From Gemmatimonadota bacterium (GTDB lineage Bacteria > Gemmatimonadota > Gemmatimonadetes > Longimicrobiales > RSA9): a DNA stretch of 38,397 nt. The stretch spans positions 1 through 38,397 of the forward strand of contig JBDLIA010000025.1 in assembly GCA_039715185.1 (NCBI GenBank). Direction: 5' to 3'. Below are positions 1,516 to 37,893 of the stretch, piece after piece. Every line of letters starts with the position of its first letter. Within the stretch, counting starts at the first letter, position 1. The notes beneath the pieces are model-generated. The model was given only the letters and a program-made list of their open reading frames with translations. It searched no databases and was not told where the DNA came from. The position numbers and the translations under genes are program-made.

Positions 1516-1885
1516 ATATCAGACGCCCTCAAGCCGATTCTGTGGGTTGGATCCTCACTAGACGCTCTGCGGCGGTTCCCAGCGGCGGTGCGTCAGAACG
1601 TCGGCTACGCTCTCTACGTCGCGCAGAAAGGGGAAAAAGGGCGGGGGCACGAAGCCGCTCAAGGGAATCGTCACGGGAGCGGGTGTTCTCGAGATCGTCG
1701 AACAGCGAGAGGGAAACGCGTACAGGGCGGTGTACACGGTCCGGTTTGAGGGAGTCGTCTACGTCCTACACGCATTCCAGAAGAAGTCGCGGAAGGGGAT
1801 CAAGACACCGAAGCAGACGATCGACTTGATCCGAGCGAGGTATGACTTAGCACAGCAGGACTACGAGACGAGAGAGACGAGATGA
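1516..1885 (+). pseudogene. HigB/Gp49-like toxin, frameshifted and without a normal start
   Basis: Two frames together encode a phage-derived Gp49/HigB-type (RelE-fold) mRNA interferase. The first frame gives LKPILWVGSSLDALRRF and on to GYALYVAQKGEK. The second begins with the family's KPLKGIVTGAGVLEIVEQ and continues through YRAVYTVRFEGVVYVLHAF and FQKKSRKGIKTPKQ to a TGA at 1883-1885. The +1 shift falls in the A/G-rich run at about 1628-1647, where one extra G would explain it. The expected start position carries ATA (1516) or ATT (1507) and no ATG/GTG/TTG is in frame. The stop overlaps the antitoxin ATG by four bases. It is either a decayed toxin or a sequencing error in a homopolymer; two independent lesions favour decay. 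Confidence 0.8.
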
Positions 1886-2217
1886 GCACGCGCAAACAGG
1901 AAGCGGTCCGAGGTGGCAGCGGCAATGTCTTCGCCGACCTGGGGCTTCCCGAGGCCGAGGAACTCCTGGCGAAGGCGGAGCTGGCTTCCCGAATAGGCCG
2001 GATCATCAAGGGGAGGCATTTGACGCAGGCTGAGGCCGCGACCGTGCTCGATACGACGCAGCCGAGTGTCTCGAATCTGATCCGCGGAAGGATCGACGGC
2101 TTCTCGATGGAACGACTGATTCGGTTTCTCAACGCGTTGGATCGCGACGTGGAGATCGTGGTCAAGCGTCGGCCACGCAGCCGGGCGGTGGCGCGGACTC
2201 GAGTAGCCCCCGCGTAG
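1882..2217 (+). CDS. HigA-like XRE-family antitoxin
   Basis: A 111-residue DNA-binding antitoxin with an XRE/HTH_37-type domain at about residues 25-90. The helix-turn-helix is visible as LTQAEAATVLDTTQPSVSNL followed by IRGRIDGFSMERLIRFLNAL and DVEIVV. The arginine-rich C-terminal tail is unstructured. The ATG overlaps the toxin stop (ATGA), the toxin-first order usual for HigBA. It is expected to neutralise the toxin and repress the operon through the palindrome at 1490-1507. The gene is intact although its toxin partner is broken, so it may now act only as a repressor or against related toxins elsewhere. Confidence 0.88.
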   Translation: MSTRKQEAVRGGSGNVFADLGLPEAEELLAKAELASRIGRIIKGRHLTQAEAATVLDTTQPSVSNLIRGRIDGFSMERLIRFLNALDRDVEIVVKRRPRSRAVARTRVAPA

Positions 2218-7185: not shown

Positions 7186-8019
7186 ATGAGCAAGACGATT
7201 CTGGTCCTGGGCGGCGGCGGTACCAAGGGCATCGCCCACGTGGGCGCATGGCGCGCCATCGAGGAAGCCGGCCTCGCGGTCGACGAGGTCGTGGGCACCA
7301 GCATCGGCTCCCTCATAGGCTCGCTGATCGCCCACCGCATGCCGCTCGACGAGATGGAGCGCCGCGCGCGCCTGCTCCGCAAGGAGCAGATCATCGGCAT
7401 CAACCGCTGGGCGCTCCTGTTCAACGGCATCCGCCAGGCGTCGGTGTTCCGCGACGACCCCTTCCGGGGCTACCTGGCCGAGGTGCTGCCCGCCGAGCGC
7501 TTCGAGGAGTTGCCCATCCCGCTCGCCGTGAACGCCGTGGATCTGGAGACGGGTCTCGCCGAGTGGTTTGGCGCGGACGGCCGCCACGACGTAACGCTGG
7601 CCGAGGCCATCTACGCTTCGAGCGCTCTGCCGCCGTTCTTCCCCCCGGCGACGATCGGCGGCCGGCTTTTCGTCGACGGCGGAGTCCGCGAGGTTCTTGC
7701 TCTGTCGCGAGCCAAGGAGCGTGGCGCGGACCTGGTGATCGCGATCGACGTGGGCGCGGGCCCCGTGAAGGACGCCCTCGACGTCGTGTCGAAGGGCATG
7801 ATCGCCATCCAGCACCGGGTCAACGACATCGTGACCTACACGCGCCGCCAGGCGCGCCTGCAGCTCTGGTCGGGTGCCCGGCTGGTGTACGTGCGGCCGC
7901 GCCTCGACGGCTACTCGACTTTCGACTTCGACTCGACCGACTACTTCCTGGAAGAGGGCTACCGGGCGACATGTGAGGTGCTGAAGCGCCAGGGCATGGG
8001 GAGAAGGGCGGCCGGGTAG
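7186..8019 (+). CDS. Patatin-like phospholipase
   Basis: A 277-residue serine lipid acyl hydrolase without a signal peptide, so probably cytoplasmic. The oxyanion loop GGGGTKG is at residues 9-15, the nucleophile is S39 in GTSIG, and the dyad aspartate is D164 in LFVDGGV. SSALPPFFPP is another patatin landmark. It is a stand-alone domain of about 280 residues, like bacterial RssA-type proteins. AAGGAG lies nine bases before the ATG. Its last 61 bases overlap the 3' end of the convergent DUF2007-like gene. Possible roles are membrane phospholipid turnover or stress response; no partner genes define it. Confidence 0.93.
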   Translation: MSKTILVLGGGGTKGIAHVGAWRAIEEAGLAVDEVVGTSIGSLIGSLIAHRMPLDEMERRARLLRKEQIIGINRWALLFNGIRQASVFRDDPFRGYLAEVLPAERFEELPIPLAVNAVDLETGLAEWFGADGRHDVTLAEAIYASSALPPFFPPATIGGRLFVDGGVREVLALSRAKERGADLVIAIDVGAGPVKDALDVVSKGMIAIQHRVNDIVTYTRRQARLQLWSGARLVYVRPRLDGYSTFDFDSTDYFLEEGYRATCEVLKRQGMGRRAAG

Positions 8020-9748: not shown

Positions 9749-11283
9749 CTTCCTGAGTCGATCAAGGCCTCCAGCTCCGCCATGGGCATCGTGTAGCGAT
9801 GAGCCCGGACCAGGGTCGTCGCGTTGGGTACCGCCGACTTGAGGGCTCTCAGATTCGCGACCGCCAGGTCGTGGTAGTAAGCCCCCACCGTCGGAGGAAT
9901 CGCCTCCGGGTTGAATTCGAACAGGTCGGCGGTAAAGACGATCCCCTCTTTGGGGAGGTACGCCACGTACATGTCATCGGCGTGACCCACGGGACCGATG
10001 TTGATGATCTCCAGGCGCGTCGTCCCGTCGTCGAACACGTGCCGATCGTCGACGATCTGGAAGACGGGCTCGCGCGGGTCCAGGCTCTGCGCGTCCGGAT
10101 CCAGATCGAAACGGGCGCGCGCAAGTTGGTCGAAGTATGCGCGGTTGCGTGCGGTCGTCATGATGGGGATCCCGGCCTTCACGAAGGCCCGCATCCCGGC
10201 CACATGCTGGTCGTGGTGGTGGGTCGGGATCCCGACCCGGATCGGCTTCTCTCCAACCACCTCGCGGATCTTCTCCAGGACGTCGAAGGGGAGGCCGACC
10301 ACGACGACCTCGCTCTCGAACTCGACGATCATCGTTTGAGTGGGCCCGTAGATGTGGACGTTGCCCGTGAGTGAGCGGAGCCTGCGGCCGGGGAAGGGCG
10401 TGTTTCTGATGATCTCGTAGCCCGGAGGCGGCGAGTAGACGCTGTCGGAGATCGCGGCCGACAGGTCGTACTCGTCGTACTGGTAGTCGTAGAACGTCTC
10501 TTTGTCCGAGCCAGCCGTGAATCTCCCGGGCACGTCTTGTCCGGCGACGGTGTGGTACCCGGTGATTCGCACTCGTTGAACGATGTCACCCCGCCGCGCG
10601 TCGACGGCCGGCCGCTCCAGCCCTACGAGGTGGCCGGTGTCCGACCTGAACAGGAAGATCCGGTAGCCGGAGAGCCCGGTCGCGTAGTGGATGCGGTCGA
10701 CGGGGTGACCATCCAGCGTACCCTCGCCGACCCACGTCAGCTGGTCCCGATTCGCGGCAAGCTCCGCCACGATGAGATGGGGGACGTAGAACCTCGCCGA
10801 GCCCGCAATGGAGGCCGGCGCGAATCCGCTCGTGGACTTCCTGATCTTGGGGAAGTACAAGAACCGGCTGTCCGGTGTGTAGATGAAGGTGAAGTTCGAA
10901 TTGCTGCCGTTCAGCGTGCTGTTGATGTCGGCGTTGTCGAAGCGCGATCCGTATGAATAGCGATCCGCCTTCTTCTGGATCGTGATATCGAGATGACGGG
11001 TGATATGCGGTGGGGAGCCGTTGGGGCTCGGGTTCTCGCCCGCGTATGCCGTCGAGTACGGACCGGAGAGTCGGACCCGCACCTGATCGAGGTCCGACAG
11101 TAAGCTCTCACCGCCCTGAGCGGCGATCGCGCGGTCCAGCACCTGTTTCGTCCTGAACGCGTCTCGCAGGGTGGCTGGGTCCTGCGCGCGAATTGGGCTA
11201 GCACCGCACAGGTTTGCGGCGCTCAGAGCAAGAGCCGCCCCCACGGTGTGCAATGCGTATCTCCGCCTCCGGCATCTTCTCAT
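9742..11283 (-). CDS. Secreted metallo-beta-lactamase-fold hydrolase
   Basis: A 513-residue exported protein. A basic start (MRRCRRRR) and hydrophobic core (TVGAALALSAANLCGA) give a signal peptide cut near IRAQ. Residues about 35-300 are a strand-rich domain of unknown function. The C-terminal MBL domain has the zinc motif THHHDQHVAG, then GPVGHADDM and FTADLFEF. The layout recalls the SoxH/quinoprotein-relay MBL proteins. ATG at 11283 is preferred over the GTG at 11289, because GGAGG lies five bases before the ATG but abuts the GTG. Its 3' end overlaps the convergent TPR regulator by seven bases. The substrate is unknown. Confidence 0.85.
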   Translation of the reverse strand: MRRCRRRRYALHTVGAALALSAANLCGASPIRAQDPATLRDAFRTKQVLDRAIAAQGGESLLSDLDQVRVRLSGPYSTAYAGENPSPNGSPPHITRHLDITIQKKADRYSYGSRFDNADINSTLNGSNSNFTFIYTPDSRFLYFPKIRKSTSGFAPASIAGSARFYVPHLIVAELAANRDQLTWVGEGTLDGHPVDRIHYATGLSGYRIFLFRSDTGHLVGLERPAVDARRGDIVQRVRITGYHTVAGQDVPGRFTAGSDKETFYDYQYDEYDLSAAISDSVYSPPPGYEIIRNTPFPGRRLRSLTGNVHIYGPTQTMIVEFESEVVVVGLPFDVLEKIREVVGEKPIRVGIPTHHHDQHVAGMRAFVKAGIPIMTTARNRAYFDQLARARFDLDPDAQSLDPREPVFQIVDDRHVFDDGTTRLEIINIGPVGHADDMYVAYLPKEGIVFTADLFEFNPEAIPPTVGAYYHDLAVANLRALKSAVPNATTLVRAHRYTMPMAELEALIDSGSH

Positions 11284-11343
11284 CTGCACCTCCGTTCGGA
11301 CCGACTCGACCGCATCGCCTTGCGTGCCACGGGCGCGCTACGC

Positions 11344-11376
11344 GAACAGTTACGGGCGTTGCGTGAACAGTTACGG
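11344..11376. repeat. Direct repeat GAACAGTTACGG, 21-bp period
   Basis: GAACAGTTACGG occurs exactly at 11344-11355 and 11365-11376. Each copy holds the small dyad AAC-A-GTT. The pair lies about 60 bases upstream of the MBL-fold gene on the opposite strand, a fitting place for a regulator bound on one face of the helix. Confidence 0.5.
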
Positions 11377-11467
11377 CCCACGATGCCCTCGCGGCGGTGC
11401 CGGACAAATGAGAGGCTTCTGAGAGGGTGCTTAGAGACGGATTGCGGCCTATAACTGCATACAGAAC

Positions 11468-11578
11468 ATGGACATGACCCCCGACGATGTCGGGAAGCCG
11501 ATGGAGGACATCTTCGCGGACTTCGACCGGCTCGTCGTGCCTGCCACGGGTCGGTCGATTGAGTCTCGTGTAGTCTAA
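11468..11578 (+). pseudogene. Truncated 5' fragment of a PLP-dependent decarboxylase
   Basis: The frame encodes MDMTPDDVGKPMEDIFADFD and then RLVVPATG before running into unrelated sequence and a TAA. It matches the N-terminal region of the intact decarboxylase downstream (MSPADF, then EPLEDILADFDRLVVPAT). About 70 residues are deleted between the start and the shared block. The shared block of some 50 bases (11499-11548 against about 12405-12454) differs at only three positions. So a second decarboxylase copy was broken here, with the VapBC genes now between fragment and intact gene. Confidence 0.8.
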
Positions 11579-11580
11579 GT

Positions 11581-11593
11581 GTACTTTGAGTAC
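11581..11593. promoter_or_regulatory. Palindrome abutting the antitoxin start
   Basis: GTACT-TTG-AGTAC is a perfect inverted repeat ending on the base before the antitoxin ATG, with a TAGTCT -10-like box ten bases ahead (11571-11576). There is no ribosome binding site, so the transcript may be leaderless. The palindrome is a likely autoregulatory operator. Confidence 0.5.
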
Positions 11594-11827
11594 ATGGCCG
11601 TCAAGACAATCACCATCGACATGCCCGCTTACGATGCCCTCAAGAGGCGCAAGCGCCCGGGGCAGTCGTTCTCGGACGTCATCAAGGAGCACTTCACGCG
11701 AGGGGTCACGGGAGCCGAGTTGCTGCGCGCCCTGGTTGATCTCCCGGTCGACGCCTCCGCTCTCGATGCCGCCGACGAACTGGTGCGGGGCCGGGCGTCC
11801 GATCAGGCGACGGCGCCCGAGCTGTGA
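11594..11827 (+). CDS. VapB-type antitoxin (DUF217-like)
   Basis: A 77-residue protein. The N-terminal strand KTITIDMPAYDALKRRKRPG and QSFSDVIKEHF resemble DUF217-type ribbon-helix-helix antitoxins. The C-terminal half (ELLRALVDLPVDASALDAAD) is the toxin-binding helix region. ATG at 11594 is preferred to the GTG at 11579, since the operator palindrome would otherwise be inside the gene and the family begins at this methionine. The last bases overlap the toxin start (GTGA). It should bind and inhibit the PIN toxin and repress the operon. Confidence 0.85.
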   Translation: MAVKTITIDMPAYDALKRRKRPGQSFSDVIKEHFTRGVTGAELLRALVDLPVDASALDAADELVRGRASDQATAPEL

Positions 11828-12228
11828 CCCACCTCGATACCTCCTACCTGATCGACCTTCTTCGAGAGAACGGACGCGGGATCGAGGGTCCGGCTACCCG
11901 AGCGCTCGAGGAACTCTCGGAGGACGAGTTGGGCGTCTCGGTTCACGTTGCGTGCGAGCTCCACGCGGGCGCCGCTCAGTCCGCGGACCCGCAGCGAGAG
12001 CACGGACGGGTCGAGGCGCTCTTGTCGGCCCTGTGGCGGGCTGAGCCAGGTGAGGCGTTCCCTATCGCGTATGGGAGAACGCTCGCGAAGCTTCGTCGGC
12101 GGGGTGAGACCGTGTCCACCACGGACCTTCTCATCGCGACCGCGGCGCTCGTCGACGGAGCCGCGCTCGTAACGCGCAACGTGCGAGACTTCGAACGGAT
12201 CCCGGGCCTCACGGTGATCTCATACTGA
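11824..12228 (+). CDS. vapC: VapC-type PIN-domain toxin
   Basis: A 134-residue PIN-domain ribonuclease. The acidic metal-binding residues are seen in order: D5 in HLDTSYLIDLL, E in ACELHAG, D in STTDLLIATAAL and D in TRNVRDFERIPGL. All four are present and the length is normal, so it should be active. VapC enzymes usually cleave tRNA or rRNA; the target here is unknown. The GTG start overlaps the antitoxin stop. The pair sits between a broken and an intact decarboxylase, so it probably arrived by an insertion linked to that duplication. Confidence 0.93.
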   Translation: MTHLDTSYLIDLLRENGRGIEGPATRALEELSEDELGVSVHVACELHAGAAQSADPQREHGRVEALLSALWRAEPGEAFPIAYGRTLAKLRRRGETVSTTDLLIATAALVDGAALVTRNVRDFERIPGLTVISY

Positions 12229-12248
12229 CGGGTTTGCCCACGCCCGAC

Positions 12249-13727
12249 ATGTCCCCCGCCGACTTCCGTCGCCACGCCCGCGCGGTCGTCGATCGGATCG
12301 CCGACTACCTGGCAAACGTGGACGGTCTGCCGGTGCTGGCGCCGGTGCGGCCGGGCGAATTCCGGGCCCAGGTCGCCGCGTCGATGCCCACCGACGGCGA
12401 GCCGCTGGAGGACATCCTCGCGGACTTCGACCGGCTCGTCGTGCCCGCCACTACGCACTGGAGCCACCCCGCGTTCTTCGCCTACTTCTCGAGCAGCGGC
12501 TCGGGCGCGGGGATCCTGGGGGAGATGCTGGCCGCGGCGCTCAACGTGAACGCCATGCTGTGGCGCACGGGGCCGGCGGCGACCGAGCTGGAGGACGCCT
12601 GCCTGGACTGGATCCGCCAGGCGCTGGGGCTGCCGGCGACCTTCGCGGGCGAGATCACCGACACCGCCTCGACGTCCATCCTCTACGCGCTGGCGGCGGC
12701 CCGCGACGCGGCCATGCCCGAAGCTCGCGCGGGGGGCATGGCGGGGCTGCCGCCGGGCCGCATCTATTGCAGCGCCGAGACGCACTCGGCCACGCACAAG
12801 GCCGCGGCGACGCTGGGGCTGGGCCTGGACGGCGTCCGGCACGTGGCGCTGGACGACGCCTTCCGCATGGACCCGCGCGCGCTCCGGGAGGCGATCCGGG
12901 AGGACAGGGCGGCGGGGCGCGTACCGGTCGCGGTGGTGGCCACGGCCGGATCCACCGGTACGGCGGCGATCGACCCGCTGCGCGACATCGCCGGGGTGTG
13001 CGCGGACGAGGGCGTGTGGCTGCACGTCGACGCCGCGTACGGCGGCTCGGCGGCGCTGGTGCCCGGCATGGAATGGGTGCTGGACGGCGCGGAGCTGGCC
13101 GACTCGATCGTGGTGAACCCGCACAAGTGGATGTTCGTGCCGCTGGACTGCTCGGCGCTGCTGGTGCGCGACCGCTCGCGGCTGGCGCGGGCGTTCTCGC
13201 TCACCGCCGCGTTTCTCACCGTGCCTTACGACGAGGCAGGCGCGGCCAACCTCATGGACTACGGCATCTCGCTGGGCCGGCGCTTCCGCGCGCTCAAGCT
13301 GTGGTTCGTGCTGCGCTACTTCGGCGCGCGCGGTTTGGCCGAGCGCATCGGCGAGCACGTCCGGCTGGCGGGTCTCTTCGAGTCATGGGTCGATGCGGCG
13401 GAGGAGTGGGAGGTGCTGGCGCCGCGCCACCTGTCGCTCGTGGTGTTTCGCTGGCGGGGCCCGGCGGGCGATGACGGGCGGCCCGAGAGCGGCGCCCGGG
13501 AGCTCAACGAGGCCAACGAGCGCATCCTGGAGCGCGTGAACGCGGGCGGGCGCGCGTTCCTGTCGCATACGGTGCTCGACGGGCTCGGCGCGGAGCCCGT
13601 GTACGCGCTCAGGCTGGCGGTCGGCAACCTGCGCACGCGCGAGGAGCACGTGCGAATCGCCTGGGAGGCGTTGGGCGGGGCCTCTAGTGTGCCGGCGCGG
13701 AAGTCCCGTGTGCACCGAGGCGCGTGA
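12249..13727 (+). CDS. PLP-dependent aromatic-L-amino-acid decarboxylase family
   Basis: A 492-residue group II decarboxylase (fold type I). The PLP lysine is in NPHKWMFVP, and HVDAAYGGSAAL supplies the cofactor-contacting aspartate. TDTASTSILYALAAARDAAM is the phosphate-binding region, and WSHPAFFAYF is typical of the family. I start at ATG 12249 (MSPADFRRHARAVVDRIADY), which matches the usual family N-terminus; a TTG at 12234 is possible and neither has a clear ribosome site. The substrate may be tryptophan, tyrosine, phenylalanine or DOPA, or a related aldehyde-forming reaction; it cannot be read from the sequence. It begins 20 bases after VapC. Confidence 0.9.
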   Translation: MSPADFRRHARAVVDRIADYLANVDGLPVLAPVRPGEFRAQVAASMPTDGEPLEDILADFDRLVVPATTHWSHPAFFAYFSSSGSGAGILGEMLAAALNVNAMLWRTGPAATELEDACLDWIRQALGLPATFAGEITDTASTSILYALAAARDAAMPEARAGGMAGLPPGRIYCSAETHSATHKAAATLGLGLDGVRHVALDDAFRMDPRALREAIREDRAAGRVPVAVVATAGSTGTAAIDPLRDIAGVCADEGVWLHVDAAYGGSAALVPGMEWVLDGAELADSIVVNPHKWMFVPLDCSALLVRDRSRLARAFSLTAAFLTVPYDEAGAANLMDYGISLGRRFRALKLWFVLRYFGARGLAERIGEHVRLAGLFESWVDAAEEWEVLAPRHLSLVVFRWRGPAGDDGRPESGARELNEANERILERVNAGGRAFLSHTVLDGLGAEPVYALRLAVGNLRTREEHVRIAWEALGGASSVPARKSRVHRGA

Positions 13728-18408: not shown

Positions 18409-18672
18409 CGATGTGCGCGTCCGTTTTGCCTTCGGTAAGTCGGCGTCCGGCGATCGCGGCGGGCGGGCCGCGCGCGGGGGCGTCAAAAGCCCGTAAATGT
18501 AAAACGATCCCGCGAAATGGCGAGCCCGGCCGGCGTCTTTCCGTCGGGCGGGGAACGAATCCGTTGACCGCGGGCGTTATTGGTCCGCATCGTGCTTTGG
18601 CCCCGACACGTGGATCGAACGGGATCGATCCGGCGTATCAACTCGGGGAACGTGGCAACTGGAGTCATCTTC

Positions 18673-19410
18673 ATGCGGTGTTCGATGAAAGAAACCGGGC
18701 GGAGCTCGATAGCGGTGGGAGTCGCCGCCGGCGCGCTGGCGGCGCTGACGCTCGGAGTGAGCGGAGGCCCGGCGAGCGCGCAGACCGAGATTCGTGTCTC
18801 GCTGGAAGAGAAGCGGCTTACGTACGTGGACGAGGGCGGCGACACGATCATGTCGGCGCCCATCGCGATCGGCCGTGGCGGGCTGTGGGAGCTCAACGGC
18901 AGGGTCTACGACTTCCGCACGCCGAAGGGGACGCGAGAGGTGCTCGCGAAGGCCGAGGATCCCGACTGGATTCCGCCCGACTGGCACTACCACGAGCGCT
19001 CCGTGCAGCGCGGCCTGGAGCCGGTTCAGCTCAAGACGGGTGACCGGATAGAGCTGTCGGACAGGACGATCATCGAGGTCCGCAACAACATCGTCGGGCG
19101 CCGCACCTGGATCTTCAACGGCGAGGAATGGGGCCACTCGCCCTTCAGCCCCACCACGCCTGGCTTCGACCTGGTGGGGGACGGCAAGCTCTTCATTCCG
19201 CCGCTCGGTTCGCCGCAGCGGAAGGTGCCGAACGCGCTCGGCCCGGTGAAGCTCGTGCTGGGCGACGGCTACCTCATCCACGGAACGCACGACTTCAACG
19301 AGAGCTCCATCGGCCTCGCCGCCAGCCACGGCTGCATCCGCATGAGCAACGCCGACGTGGAGCAGCTGTTCAGCATCGTGCCCGTGGGGACACCGGTACG
19401 CATTTTCTGA
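18673..19410 (+). CDS. Secreted L,D-transpeptidase (YkuD domain)
   Basis: A 245-residue exported cell-wall enzyme. A signal peptide (residues 1-36, SSIAVGVAAGALAALTLGVS, ending ASA) precedes the YkuD domain. The catalytic motif is HGTHDFNESSIGLAASHGCI followed by RM, with the cysteine nucleophile at about residue 221. YkuD enzymes form 3-3 peptidoglycan cross-links or anchor proteins to the wall. The ATG at 18673 follows GGAG by eight bases and gives a proper signal peptide. An upstream in-frame GTG at 18580 would add a non-family stretch. A strong terminator follows. Confidence 0.93.
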   Translation: MRCSMKETGRSSIAVGVAAGALAALTLGVSGGPASAQTEIRVSLEEKRLTYVDEGGDTIMSAPIAIGRGGLWELNGRVYDFRTPKGTREVLAKAEDPDWIPPDWHYHERSVQRGLEPVQLKTGDRIELSDRTIIEVRNNIVGRRTWIFNGEEWGHSPFSPTTPGFDLVGDGKLFIPPLGSPQRKVPNALGPVKLVLGDGYLIHGTHDFNESSIGLAASHGCIRMSNADVEQLFSIVPVGTPVRIF

Positions 19411-25975: not shown

Positions 25976-26674
25976 ATGAGGACACACACCACACCCGCCG
26001 CGGGGATCGCGGCCAGCCGTCTCTGGGCGATCCCGGCGCTCCTGGCGCTGATGCTGGCGGCTTGCGGCGAGGACCCGACCGTCCCGCAGCCGAGCGCGGA
26101 CGGCATAGAGGCCGACCTGACCCGGCTGGACTCGGAGGCGCTCGGCGAGGGCGACGGCCAGTTGGCCATGGAGTCCGACGTGGCGGCGTTCGTGGGACCG
26201 CCGCGGGACCGCCCACCGGTCGACTCCAGGTCGCTCCTGGTTGGTCTGACGCACCGCGCCATCCGCATCGTGGCCGAGGAGGAAGGCCCGGAGGCGGCGC
26301 GTGCGCTGCTGGCCCCCGTATTCGAGGCGCTACAGAGCGCGCGGCGCGCGCGCCAGGCGGGCGAGCTCGAGCTGGCGCGGGAGTTCCTGCTGGAGGCGCG
26401 CCTGCGCATGGCGCAGATCGTGGTGCACGTGCTCGGGCCCGAGGTGTCCGTGCGCGTGCTGAACGGCGTCTCCGAGCGCGTGCACGCTCTCTTCACGCGG
26501 CTCGAGGAGGCCGAGGCCAACGGCGAGGAGCACCCGCGCGTGCGCGCGCTCCTGGAGCGCGCCGCTGAGCTGCTGCGGCAGTCGGCGCGGGCTCTGGAGG
26601 GCGGCCACCCGGCGCTGTCGCTGGAGCGTTCGACGCGCGCCGCTGATCTGCTGCATCACTGGCTGGACGGGTAG
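25976..26674 (+). CDS. Helical lipoprotein of unknown function
   Basis: A 232-residue protein with a lipoprotein signal (SRLWAIPALLALMLAACGED, lipobox LAAC, Cys at about 30). The mature part is almost wholly alpha-helical and charged (EAARALLAPVFEALQSARRA, then RQAGELELAREFLLEARLRM), with spacing like TPR or helical-bundle repeats. No family is recognised. The ATG follows CAGGAGAC. It is 68 bases after the histidine kinase and may share its transcript. Confidence 0.8.
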   Translation: MRTHTTPAAGIAASRLWAIPALLALMLAACGEDPTVPQPSADGIEADLTRLDSEALGEGDGQLAMESDVAAFVGPPRDRPPVDSRSLLVGLTHRAIRIVAEEEGPEAARALLAPVFEALQSARRARQAGELELAREFLLEARLRMAQIVVHVLGPEVSVRVLNGVSERVHALFTRLEEAEANGEEHPRVRALLERAAELLRQSARALEGGHPALSLERSTRAADLLHHWLDG

Positions 26675-26711
26675 CGGAGGGCTGCTCGGCGCGGAGCGAC
26701 GCTGTGTGCCG

Positions 26712-26726
26712 GCAACGGTACACTAG
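26712..26726. repeat. Shared 15-mer GCAACGGTACACTAG, copy 2
   Basis: Identical to 13838-13852. It lies 38 bases after the lipoprotein stop and 30 bases before the long hairpin. Confidence 0.4.
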
Positions 26727-26756
26727 CCGGCGTGACGCGCGCCGCCGGGATGCAGA

Positions 26757-26788
26757 GCGCCCCGGCCGGGGAAACCCGGTCGGGGCGC
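26757..26788. terminator. 14-bp hairpin with GAAA tetraloop between convergent genes
   Basis: GCGCCCCGGCCGGG (26757-26770) pairs with CCCGGTCGGGGCGC (26775-26788), with a single G-T wobble, closed by a GAAA tetraloop. It sits between the 3' ends of the lipoprotein and DUF4097 genes and may stop transcription from both sides. There is no T tract on either strand, so it is not a classical terminator. Confidence 0.55.
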
Positions 26789-26848
26789 CAGTGCGTGAGG
26801 CGGGCGCGCTGTCTCAGCCGCCCTCCGGCACGTGAATTCCAGCCGACA

Positions 26849-27772
26849 TCAGCGGCTGCGGATTTCCACCGAACCCGAGAAGCTGCTGGCGTCCACCCGC
26901 GCGCTCCCGTCGCCCACCCTGAAGTGCGCCTCGCGACCTGGGGTCCAGCGGCTGGTGCGCTCTACTTGATCCGAAATGTCGAGGTCTCTCAACCGGCCCC
27001 GGATGGAGCCGCTGAAGGTCGACAGGGAGAACTCGGCGTTCACGTCACCGGTCAGCACGAGCACCACGCGGCCGCTGTGGCTCTCGAAGTCGAAGTCGCC
27101 GCCGTCGGCGAGCTCGCCGGTGAACGCGACCGATCCCGACACCGTCTCGAAGTTGCCGTCCAGGAAGGTGCCCCCGCGCACGTCCACGTCCCCGCTGACC
27201 GACCCGGCGCGGATGCTCGCGCCGTCCACGCCGCTCACGACCACGTCGCCACTGACTGATTCCAGCCGCAGGTCGGGGCTCGTCCCCTCGACCTGGATGG
27301 TGCCGCTGACCGACTCCGCGCGGACCTCACCGCCGGCGCCGCGGATGTCTACGTCGCCGCTCACGGCCTCCAGGTCGAGGCGGCCGTTGACGCCCTGCAC
27401 GTCGATGTCCGACGACACGGTCTCGACTCTCAGTCGCGCTCCGGCCGGCATGCTGATCTCCAGCGCGGTGCCCGAGCTGCGCCAGGATCCGCCGCGCCGC
27501 GGGTGCCGCACGCGGATCGACACGCGGCCGCCCGACGCGACGATGTCCACGTCCTCCACGTTGCGCCCGAGCGTGCCCGTGACGCGCACCTCGTCGCGGT
27601 TCCAGCCGCGCACCTCGATGGAGCCCGCGAGGTTCTCCACCTCGACCCTGCCGTTCGCGCGCAGGGCCCTGGTCTCATCGATCTCGCGCTGGGCCAGCGC
27701 CTCGCCGGGGTTCGCGGCCAGCAGCAAGCCGAACACGGCCAGGCTCGTCGCAGCTCTCATTGTGGGTCGCAT
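26849..27772 (-). CDS. DUF4097-family exported beta-helix protein
   Basis: A 307-residue exported protein. The signal peptide (AATSLAVFGLLLAANPGEAL) is cut near ALA-QR. The rest is a regular series of strands about 19-20 residues apart with the recurring pattern V-x-S/A-V-S-G-D-V-D-V (for example LEAVSGDVDIRGAGGEVRAE). This is the DUF4097 solenoid, also called a putative adhesin. Serine and glycine in the turns would stack on one face. The ATG (complement of 27770-27772) is nine bases after the anti-sigma stop, so it is third in the sigma operon. It may be an envelope-stress effector. Confidence 0.88.
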   Translation of the reverse strand: MRPTMRAATSLAVFGLLLAANPGEALAQREIDETRALRANGRVEVENLAGSIEVRGWNRDEVRVTGTLGRNVEDVDIVASGGRVSIRVRHPRRGGSWRSSGTALEISMPAGARLRVETVSSDIDVQGVNGRLDLEAVSGDVDIRGAGGEVRAESVSGTIQVEGTSPDLRLESVSGDVVVSGVDGASIRAGSVSGDVDVRGGTFLDGNFETVSGSVAFTGELADGGDFDFESHSGRVVLVLTGDVNAEFSLSTFSGSIRGRLRDLDISDQVERTSRWTPGREAHFRVGDGSARVDASSFSGSVEIRSR

Positions 27773-27781
27773 GGTGCGCTC

Positions 27782-28498
27782 CTATATCGTCCGAGGCAGG
27801 CCGACGGCCCGCTCCAAAAGTTCAACCTTCCGCCCGTAGGCGCTGTGCAGCATATCCGGCAGCACCGGATCCCCGGGCGACTCGTCGAAGGCGGCTCGCG
27901 CCGCCTCGATCGCCCGGTCCACGATCTCCAGGTTCCGCTCTATTTCCACCACGATCTCCGGCGCCAGCTCGCCGCGCCGGCGCTCCAGCTCCGCCTGCAG
28001 CTCGGCCACCGGACTCTCGTACTCCTTCACCAGCTCGGCGCGCGGGTCCAGGTCATCGTCGCTGACCAGCACCGCGCCGTCGGCATCGACCGACGTGACC
28101 GCGGGCTGTGCCACCGGCGCCTGTCCCGCGCGGGCGATGATCACGCCCGTCACCCCGCCCACCAGCAGCAGCGCCACGGACGCCGCCACGCGCAGCGCCG
28201 GCGACCACGTAGCGCGCCGCTCCGCCACCGCGACGCCCGTCCGGTCGGCCGGGAAGGCAATCTCCTTGTGCGCCGCCGCGCGGATGCGCGCCTGGATTCC
28301 GTCCCACAGCTCCCGCTCGGGCTCCACCGGTCCGCCCAGCTCGCGCGCCCGCTCCAGCAGGTCGCGTAGCTCCCGCACCTGCGCGGCACACCGGACGCAC
28401 CCGTCCAGGTGCGCGCGCACGGCCTCGGCTTCCCGTGGAGCCAGCGAGCCGTCCGCGGCGTCGTGCAGCCGCGTCTCGTTCAGGTGCATGTCGCTCAT
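27782..28498 (-). CDS. Anti-sigma factor with zinc finger and membrane segment
   Basis: A 238-residue regulator. The N-terminal anti-sigma domain has the zinc motif H-x3-C-x2-C in RAHLDGCVRCAAQVREL (about residues 29-45). One transmembrane segment follows (about 102-122, VAASVALLLVGGVTGVIIAR). A periplasmic helical domain (about 150-238) would sense the signal. It is expected to hold the adjacent ECF sigma factor inactive. The ATG overlaps the sigma stop by four bases (ATGA), as is usual for such pairs. Confidence 0.9.
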   Translation of the reverse strand: MSDMHLNETRLHDAADGSLAPREAEAVRAHLDGCVRCAAQVRELRDLLERARELGGPVEPERELWDGIQARIRAAAHKEIAFPADRTGVAVAERRATWSPALRVAASVALLLVGGVTGVIIARAGQAPVAQPAVTSVDADGAVLVSDDDLDPRAELVKEYESPVAELQAELERRRGELAPEIVVEIERNLEIVDRAIEAARAAFDESPGDPVLPDMLHSAYGRKVELLERAVGLPRTI

Positions 28499-29343: not shown

Positions 29344-31695
29344 ATGAAGCGGCCGAGCGCCCGCCTTCAAGTCGCCGGGGCCAAACCGCAGGACGTGGGC
29401 AAGGGCGTGGCGCGCCTGGGCTCCACCGAGCTGGAGCAGCTCGGGGTCAAGGAAGGCGACGTCATCGAGCTCGAGGGGAAGCGCACCACGGTGGCGATCG
29501 CGCTTCCGCCCTACGCCGAGGACGAGGGCCTGGAGGTCATCCGACTCGACGGCCTGCAGCGCGCCAACGCCGACGTGGGCATGGGCGATCACGTCGTGGT
29601 ACGACGCGCCGAAGTCAGCCCGGCGCGCAAGGTGACGCTGGCCCCGGCGCAGACCAACGTGAAGCTGTCCGGCTCGCCGGAGCTGCTCCGCCGCACGCTC
29701 TTCCAGCGACCCCTTACGGCGGGCGACGTGATCTCGACGGCGGTCTACCGGCCGTCCTCCAGCGCCGAAGGCGTCGGCTTCCCGGAGGACGTCTTCCGCA
29801 CGTTCTTCCAGCAGCCCGCCTACGCGCTGCAGGAGATCCGACTCATCGTCGTGTCGACCACCCCGCGCGGCGTGGTCAGGGTGGCCGAGGACACCGAGAT
29901 CGAGCTGCTGCCCGAGTACACCGAGCCGCAGGAGGCGCGGCGCATCGACGTCACCTACGACGACGTCGGCGGGCACGGGGACGCGGTCGACCAGGTGCGG
30001 GAGATGGTGGAGCTGCCCCTCAAGCACCCCGAGCTCTTCCACCGGCTGGGCATCGACCCGCCCAAGGGCGTGCTCCTGTACGGCCCGCCGGGAACAGGTA
30101 AGACGCTGCTCGCGCGCGCCGTGGCCAACGAGTCCGACGCCGCGTTCTTCCACATCGCCGGCCCCGAGATCATGGGTCGCTACTACGGCGAGTCAGAGGG
30201 CCGGCTGCGCGAGGTCTTCGAGCAGGCCGAGCAGCAGGCCCCCTCCATCGTCTTCATCGACGAGGTCGACTCCATCGCCCCCAAGCGCCAGGAGGCCTCG
30301 GGCGAGGTGGAGCGCCGGGTGGTGGCGCAGCTGCTCACCCTGATGGACGGGCTCAAACCGCGCCAGAACGTGATCGTGATCGCCGCCACCAACCGGGTGG
30401 ACGCGATCGACGAGGCGCTGCGCCGGCCCGGCCGCTTCGACCGCGAGATCGTCATCGGCGTGCCGGACGCCGTCGGCCGCCGCGAGATCCTGTCCATCCA
30501 CACGCGCGGGATGCCGCTGGACTGGCGCGTCGAGCTGGCCCGTCTGGCGCGCCGCACCTACGGCTTCGTGGGCGCCGATCTGTCCGCGCTGTCGCGCGAA
30601 GCAGCCATGGAGGCGTTGCGCCGCACGTTGCCCGACCTGGACATAGCCGCGGGTGAGGTACCCTCCGAGGTGCTCGAGGCGCTGCGCGTGACGACCGAGG
30701 ACTTCGACAACGCTCTGCACCGGGTCCAGCCGTCGGCGCTACGCGAGATCATGATCCAGGTCCCCGACGTGACCTGGGGCGACATAGGCGGACTCAAGGA
30801 GGCGCAGGAGCGGCTCATCGAGGGCATCGAGCTGCCGCTGCGCTTCCCGGAGGCGTTCCAGCGCCTGGGCATCCGGCCGGCGCGCGGGTTCCTGCTGTTC
30901 GGCCCCCCGGGCACCGGCAAGACGCTGCTGGCGAAGGCGGTCGCGCGCGAGGCGGAGGCCAACTTCATCGCCACCAAATCCTCCAGCCTGCTGTCCAAGT
31001 GGTACGGCGAGTCGGAGCAGCAGATGAGCCGGCTGTTCGCGCGCGCGCGCCAGGTCGCCCCCACGGTGATCTTCATGGACGAGATCGATTCGCTGGCGCC
31101 GCCCCGGGGCGGGTTCCGGGGCGAGCCGGCGGTGACCGAGCGCGTGGTCAACACGCTGCTCTCGGAGATGGACGGCCTGGAGACGCTGCGGGGCGTGGTG
31201 GTCATCGGCGCCACCAACCGGCCGCTCCTGGTCGACCCGGCGCTGCTGCGGCCGGGCCGGTTCGACGAGCTGATCTACGTCTCCGTGCCGGACGAGGACG
31301 GACGCCGCCGGATCCTGGGCATCCACACTTCGGACATGCCGCTCGCGGCCGACGTGGACCTGGACGCGCTGGCGGGCGACACCGAGGGCTATACGGGCGC
31401 GGACCTGGAAGACCTGGTCCGGCGCGCGGGCCTGGAGGCGCTGCGCGAGGACCTGGAGATGGCCGAGGTGTCGATGGAGCTCTTCCTGCGCTCGCTCAAG
31501 TCGACGCGACCCTCGGTCACCCCCGAGATGGAAGAGGAGTACAAGCAGATCCTCGCGACGCTCAAACAGGAGAGCCCGCTGGGCACGGGCAGGATCGGGT
31601 TCGAGGTGGTCCAGCGGCCGGAGGGGCGGCCGATGGCCGCTCGGTCCGAGTCAGAGTCCGGAGACGCCGAGGACTACGAGGGCCCGATCTCGTAG
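29344..31695 (+). CDS. CDC48/VAT-type double AAA+ ATPase
   Basis: A 783-residue hexameric unfoldase of the CDC48/p97/VAT family, rare in bacteria. The N domain spans about residues 1-185 (RLQVAGAKPQDVGKGVARLG). D1 has Walker A GPPGTGKT at 247-254 and Walker B IVFIDEVDS. D2 has Walker A at 520-527 and Walker B VIFMDEIDS. Both modules keep arginine fingers in the RRPGRFD and LRPGRFD regions. It should extract or unfold proteins using ATP, perhaps for a protease or the M42 peptidase. A GGAGGAGGGGAG run before the ATG gives strong initiation. Its last 22 bases overlap the convergent rmuC. Confidence 0.95.
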   Translation: MKRPSARLQVAGAKPQDVGKGVARLGSTELEQLGVKEGDVIELEGKRTTVAIALPPYAEDEGLEVIRLDGLQRANADVGMGDHVVVRRAEVSPARKVTLAPAQTNVKLSGSPELLRRTLFQRPLTAGDVISTAVYRPSSSAEGVGFPEDVFRTFFQQPAYALQEIRLIVVSTTPRGVVRVAEDTEIELLPEYTEPQEARRIDVTYDDVGGHGDAVDQVREMVELPLKHPELFHRLGIDPPKGVLLYGPPGTGKTLLARAVANESDAAFFHIAGPEIMGRYYGESEGRLREVFEQAEQQAPSIVFIDEVDSIAPKRQEASGEVERRVVAQLLTLMDGLKPRQNVIVIAATNRVDAIDEALRRPGRFDREIVIGVPDAVGRREILSIHTRGMPLDWRVELARLARRTYGFVGADLSALSREAAMEALRRTLPDLDIAAGEVPSEVLEALRVTTEDFDNALHRVQPSALREIMIQVPDVTWGDIGGLKEAQERLIEGIELPLRFPEAFQRLGIRPARGFLLFGPPGTGKTLLAKAVAREAEANFIATKSSSLLSKWYGESEQQMSRLFARARQVAPTVIFMDEIDSLAPPRGGFRGEPAVTERVVNTLLSEMDGLETLRGVVVIGATNRPLLVDPALLRPGRFDELIYVSVPDEDGRRRILGIHTSDMPLAADVDLDALAGDTEGYTGADLEDLVRRAGLEALREDLEMAEVSMELFLRSLKSTRPSVTPEMEEEYKQILATLKQESPLGTGRIGFEVVQRPEGRPMAARSESESGDAEDYEGPIS

Positions 31696-36810: not shown

Positions 36811-37893
36811 ATGGCAGACACCACTGACGACCGCGACCAGAGAGAGCGCATCCGCCTGAGCCACCTGTCCCACGGGGCCGGTTGAGCGTGTAAGCTCGGT
36901 AGCGCCGAGCTGACGCAGGTTCTGCGTCACCTGGTGCCGTTCGACGACCCCGCGGTCCTGGTGGACGCCTCCACCGCGGACGACGCGGCAGTCTATCGGC
37001 TCTCCAACGACCGCGCGCTGGTCGCGACGGCGGATTTCTTCACGGCCATCGTAGACGACCCCTACGACTTCGGCCGGATCGCCGCGGCGAACGCGCTCTC
37101 GGACGTGTACGCCATCGGCGGGCGCCCGCTGTTCGCGCTCAACCTCGTGGGGTTCCCGCGCGGTCTGCTCGCGAAGCAGGACTTGCTGTCGGAGATCCTG
37201 CGCGGCGGCGGCGACGCGGCCGCGGAGGCGGGGGTCCCGATCGTGGGCGGACACACGGTCGACGACCCGGAACCCAAGTTCGGGCTGTGCGTCGTGGGCG
37301 AGGTCCACCCGGACCGCATCGTACGCAACTCCACCGCCCGGCCCGGCGACCTGCTGGTGCTCACCAAGGCGCTGGGGACCGGCGTCATCGCGACGGCTGC
37401 CAAGGCCGATGCGGCGCCCAGCGCGGTGCTGGCGGGCGCCGTGGAGAGCATGCGCACGCTCAACCGCGGCGCCGCCGAGGCCATGGTCGAGGTGGGGGTA
37501 CACGCCGCCACCGACGTGAGCGGCTTCGGCCTGCTCGGGCACCTCGCCGAGATGATGCGCGGTGCGCATACCACCGCGCGCCTGAGGGCCTTCGCCGTCC
37601 CGGTGCTGGCGGGAGCGCAGGAACTCGTCGCCGCGGGACACGTTCCGGGCGGCACGCGGCGCAACCTCAGAGACCTGGAGCCCGAGCTGAGCTGGGATTC
37701 GGACGTGCCGGAGAGCCGGCGGACGCTGCTGGCGGACGCGCAGACATCGGGAGGCCTGCTCATCAGCGTGGGCCCCGACCGCGTGGACGGGCTGCTCCGG
37801 CGGCTGGAAGAGTTCGGGCCGCACGCGCCGGCGGTGGTCGGCGAAGTCGGTGCCCCCGAGGACGTGCGCATCGTGATCCACGGAGACGATTGA
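36811..37893 (+). CDS. selD: Selenide, water dikinase (SelD), selenocysteine-containing
   Basis: A 360-residue enzyme making selenophosphate from selenide and ATP. From ATG 36811 the frame reads RIRLSHLSHGAG, then TGA (36883-36885, codon 25), then ACK, and continues without interruption to the TGA at 37891-37893. The classical motif is HGAGCGCK, so the TGA stands exactly at the catalytic Cys17 position (E. coli numbering) and should be read as selenocysteine. The second Cys and the catalytic Lys are kept. Further landmarks are TADDAAV, TADFFTAIVDDPYDFGRIAA, ALSDVYAIGG, GHTVDDPEPKFGL and DVSGFGLLGHL. The ribosome site is weak. If TGA is treated as stop, a false GTG start at 36934 truncates the gene. 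Confidence 0.93.
36886..36929 (+). promoter_or_regulatory. Candidate bacterial SECIS: two tandem hairpins after the selD TGA
   Basis: Hairpin 1 pairs AGCTCGG (36893-36899) with CCGAGCT (36905-36911) around TAGCG. A lower stem GCGT (36886-36889) with ACGC (36913-36916) can extend it. Hairpin 2 pairs TGACGCAG (36911-36918) with CTGCGTCA (36922-36929) around GTT. Hairpin 2 starts its loop with G, has an 8-bp stem, and its loop lies 33 bases after the TGA. That fits the bacterial SECIS rules as I know them; hairpin 1 is closer (14 bases) and has G only third in the loop. The hairpins share bases, so they may exclude each other. Confidence 0.7.

Follow-up and report, generated by a model that had tools for sequence, protein, structure and literature searches.

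The selD gene at positions 36811–37893 (plus strand) encodes, with very high confidence, a selenocysteine-containing selenophosphate synthetase (selenide, water dikinase), in which an internal UGA is almost certainly read as Sec and an ordinary TGA serves as the stop. The window spans the entire contig C25 (38,397 bases), which belongs to a genome of 3.66 Mb, assembled in 252 contigs and 96% complete. Translation of the gene gave 360 residues, with a single internal TGA at codon 25 (36883–36885, plus strand), placed in the motif LSHGAG-U-ACKLG, and a terminal TGA. When Cys was put at codon 25, the product matched the SelD family over its full length (TIGR00476, E=2.8e-115, 384.8 bits against a cut-off of 125 in NCBIfam), and a second NCBIfam model, NF002098 SelD, was also matched (E=2.5e-110, 368.6 bits, cut-off 299). 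In the alignment to E. coli SelD (PDB 3u0o; SHGAGCGCK), with positions counted along the alignment, codon 25 corresponds to Cys17. The second Cys is intact, as Cys27 (36889–36891) at the position of Cys19, and the catalytic Lys20 is present as Lys28 (36892–36894). The earlier note had located the TGA exactly at the catalytic Cys of SelD and had taken the intact Lys, the second Cys and the conserved flanks as arguments against a random stop; the alignment of the translation with known SelD, which it had proposed as a check, agreed with this on each count, and the flanks are conserved in relatives from the phylum that carry the same TGA.

Under the standard code, open reading frame calling returns only 36934–37893 (plus strand), with a GTG start and 319 amino acids, and this shortened frame is without Sec25, Cys27 and Lys28, confirming the earlier remark that an annotation starting at 36934 drops the active site. 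That call is what would be expected if the TGA were a real stop, the locus then being a pseudogene or the source of a protein that starts at 36934 and has no active-site residue. Against this, relatives of about 60–68% identity with the same TGA have kept the frame and the residues that precede it, a pseudogene would not retain a single TGA in a fixed place throughout the phylum, and tRNA-Sec, selA and selB are present in the genome. We consider a real stop extremely improbable.

The codon was then followed in a sample of 395 Gemmatimonadota genomes, which are related to each other and include many drafts. A SelD match was found in 286 of them, and among the 149 matches listed, 135 had an internal TGA and 14 had no stop at all. 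Where the codon was read directly, 29 of the 30 loci from the phylum, including the query, had TGA and one had TGC, while the 59 named loci were divided between TGA (30) and TGC or TGT (29). The named relatives belong to Gemmatimonadota, including Longimicrobiales, followed by Chloroflexota, Actinomycetota and others, which places the window most likely in Gemmatimonadota. Because homologues of 53–68% identity elsewhere in the phylum carry the internal TGA, chance and sequencing error were excluded as its origin. A sequencing or assembly error at 36883 would need to have changed just one base of a true TGC or TGT, and Cys-type SelD does occur in the same family (one locus with TGC), but TGA occupies the SelD codon in independent genomes of many genera, which leaves such an error with hardly any probability.

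Some members of the phylum have the other form of the enzyme. SelD without an internal stop (G349 and G146 of the same family, genus g5; L030, where the codon was read as TGC) occurs in genomes that have kept tRNA-Sec, and likely represents a change from Sec to Cys. The hosts of all 14 stop-free SelD genes among the matches listed retain tRNA-Sec.

The machinery for reading UGA as Sec is encoded in the same genome, at three loci outside the window. The gene selA is in contig C32 at 11162–12511 (557 bits, cut-off 268), selB is in contig C36 at 26261–28084 (347 bits including its C-terminal piece, cut-off 242), and tRNA-Sec is in contig C82 at 7897–7989 (75 bits, cut-off 47), with the anticodon TCA (UCA) as read by ARAGORN. 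The earlier note had suggested a search for these three genes and had staked its reading on their not being absent; all of them were found. The presence of the decoding machinery, together with a codon common to relatives across the phylum, is the reason why we infer that the UGA is read as Sec. Across the 395 genomes, related as they are and many of them drafts, SelD and tRNA-Sec were both detected in 268 and neither in 98, with SelD only in 18 and the tRNA only in 11; owing to the relatedness, a Fisher test on these counts gives too strong an association. Among the matches listed, tRNA-Sec was found in 126 of the 135 genomes with TGA-type SelD, and all but one of the nine genomes in which it was not detectable are draft assemblies in many contigs. 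The 11 genomes with tRNA-Sec and no SelD match at E <= 1e-20 (G142, G318 and nine others of the phylum), some of which are 92–98% complete, could be explained by assembly gaps, by the search filter or by a diverged SelD.

A changed code, in which TGA would stand for an ordinary amino acid such as Trp or Gly, was also considered, and nothing was found in its favour. The stops of 662 long, confidently predicted genes were TGA in 387, TAG in 249 and TAA in 26. TGA is thus the commonest ordinary stop of the genome and has not been reassigned. It also terminates selD, and internal TGA codons that combine a redox motif with coding-like sequence on either side are rare, with three clear cases in 2.59 Mb. 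The probability left for a reassigned codon is negligible.

Two hairpins follow the UGA. The published model of the bacterial SECIS element has an apical loop of 3–9 nt with a G in its first two positions, a stem of 4–16 bp, a distance of 16–37 nt from the UGA and a minimum free energy of at most −7.5 (PMC13188914). The hairpin H2 (36911–36929, plus strand), a bSECIS candidate with a stem of 8 bp, the apical loop GUU (36919–36921), a distance of 33 nt from the UGA and −10.8 kcal/mol, meets all of these constraints. H1 (36893–36911, plus strand) is closer to the UGA and has 8 pairs and the loop AGC; its spacing of 15 nt misses the published range by a single nucleotide, and its role is uncertain. 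No match to Rfam at the gathering threshold was obtained within the window.

The model was matched in 54 of the 59 UGA-type SelD genes (40 of 42 in the phylum, nearly all at 32–33 nt, and 14 of 17 in other phyla) and in 3 of the 30 Cys-type genes, a contrast that is partly one of composition, as the Cys-type set comes mostly from other phyla and many of its members are lower in G+C. The model alone is weak, being matched at 354 of 2346 random coding positions (15%) and after 98 of 467 genuine TGA stops (21%). The outer pair of H2 (28–42) shows change on both sides, as GC in 22, AT in 16 and GT in 8 of 49 distinct sequences; H2 also overlaps the conserved codons for Gln-Val-Leu-Arg, which alone favour a stem. 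Compared with synonymous shuffles, the 42 nt that follow the UGA did not have an extreme folding energy (z of −1.17 in the window, phylum mean of −0.75); the position-specific model and the pair counts were more informative. The one Cys-type SelD among the 30 loci of the phylum, L030, still has the hairpins after its Cys codon. Its retained hairpin may be a remnant of the Sec-type state or a consequence of the protein sequence that the two types have in common; hairpin remnants have been reported for other changes from Sec to Cys (PMC1794560).

Of the two structures, H2 is the better SECIS candidate, and binding of SelB to it is predicted. There is a lesser chance that H1, or both hairpins, rather than H2 alone, form the SECIS, which would leave the Sec reading unchanged. 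H1 is conserved in UGA-type SelD. Among the sequences listed, 43 distinct UGA-type ones have Leu at one codon within it, and every one of these uses CTC, the codon that pairing with GAG would call for, while the genome prefers CTG (0.58 against 0.31). Its loop, however, is not constant and lies outside the 16–37 nt range, whereas H2 fits every published constraint and has G-U at loop positions 1 and 2. More doubtful is the idea that H1 and H2 make up one composite Sec-insertion signal in this and related phyla, unlike the single-stem bSECIS, and connected with a self-regulation of selD that depends on the selenium supply; we regard it as rather unlikely.

With H2 as the preferred candidate, the following course of events is proposed. 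With the ribosome at the UGA (36883), SelB carrying Sec-tRNA-Sec would recognize the downstream hairpin (most likely 36911–36929), and Sec would be inserted at codon 25 in place of termination. Sec25 would then act like Cys17 of E. coli, taking part in the conversion of selenide and ATP to selenophosphate. SelA makes Sec-tRNA-Sec from selenophosphate, so the making of SelD would require selenophosphate formed by SelD, and the enzyme would also supply two or more redox selenoproteins in that cell.

These further users of selenium were sought by a scan for TGA codons with coding-like flanks on both sides, covering 2.59 Mb (71% of the genome), which returned selD together with two other convincing cases. 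The probable second selenoprotein is an AhpC/TSA peroxiredoxin-like protein with a UxxC motif (RGRW-U-SHC), encoded in contig C37 (L235) at 18427–18942 on the minus strand, with the TGA at 18769–18771 (Pfam E=9.2e-21). The probable third is a peroxidase-related protein of the AhpD/CMD type with a CxxU motif (CRY-U-TEGH), in contig C38 (L237) at 385–1077 on the minus strand, with the TGA at 754–756 (TIGR01926, 114 bits, above the cut-off). Both Prx-like UxxC proteins and TIGR01926 AhpD-like CxxU proteins are present in published selenoprotein lists (PMC13188914). Judging from these sequences, the cell probably has selenoproteins besides SelD, and yet others may lie outside the scanned 71%. The claim of the earlier note that the organism makes and uses selenocysteine is therefore supported by selA, selB, tRNA-Sec(UCA), the SECIS-type hairpin and at least two further UGA-interrupted redox genes.

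The formate dehydrogenase alpha subunit FdhA (contig C7, 56399–58450) has no internal stop and is a Cys form with the motif RLCHASS. The selenouridine synthase MnmH/YbbB gave no match to TIGR03167 at E <= 0.001 in the 96% complete genome, which does not point to the SeU trait. These two observations had suggested a closed loop with SelD as the sole selenoprotein, an idea that was rejected because of the two further candidates in the 2.59 Mb.

Elsewhere in the window, a VapB-type antitoxin gene overlaps a PIN-domain gene by 4 bases (11579–12228, plus strand), forming a probable VapBC toxin–antitoxin pair, and a regulator of the HTH_37 family, a kind found as antitoxin in such pairs, is encoded at 1882–2217 (plus strand). 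An IS481-type transposase lies near the contig end (152–1318, minus strand), and a double AAA ATPase of the CDC48/VAT type with CDC48 N-terminal domains, here in a bacterium, is encoded at 29344–31695 (plus strand).

Selenoproteins of the Sec-containing SelD family are abundant and have long been known (PMC13188914, PMC1794560); among prokaryotic selenoprotein families, only one is described as more widespread. Sec-SelD, changes from Sec to Cys in SelD and species with SelD as the single selenoprotein were all discussed by Zhang et al. 2006 (PMC1794560). The protein described here shares with the Sec-SelD/SPS2 family (TIGR00476; Zhang et al. 2006, PMC1794560; Mariotti et al. 2015, PMC4561486) the enzyme family, the Sec at the same active-site position, the conserved Lys three residues on, a bSECIS directly downstream and a genome with selA, selB and selC; it differs in sequence and host lineage only, and nothing functionally distinct was found. 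The alignment with E. coli SelD (PDB 3u0o) is nearly full length and includes the SHGAG-x-x-CK motif, with Cys17 in that enzyme in place of Sec25. A SelD domain is also shared with the Ndh-SelD and NifS-SelD fusions (PMC2398784), but SelD here is single-domain, with no fusion partner, and the Ndh-type fusions are Cys forms with CxxC. A text search found no mention of Sec-SelD from Gemmatimonadota in the main texts of papers; the supplementary tables of large surveys probably have entries, and absence from main texts is not evidence of its being unrecorded.

This is thus a known type of protein, and the general picture of SelD biology is unchanged. For the organism, the finding means that its lineage very probably decodes selenocysteine, and the same pattern is seen throughout the phylum sample. 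For the gene, an annotation under the standard code would shorten selD by 41 codons with loss of the active site, which the Sec reading corrects. For the family, the coexistence of Sec-type and Cys-type SelD within one phylum provides a usable natural set for studies of the exchange of Sec for Cys.
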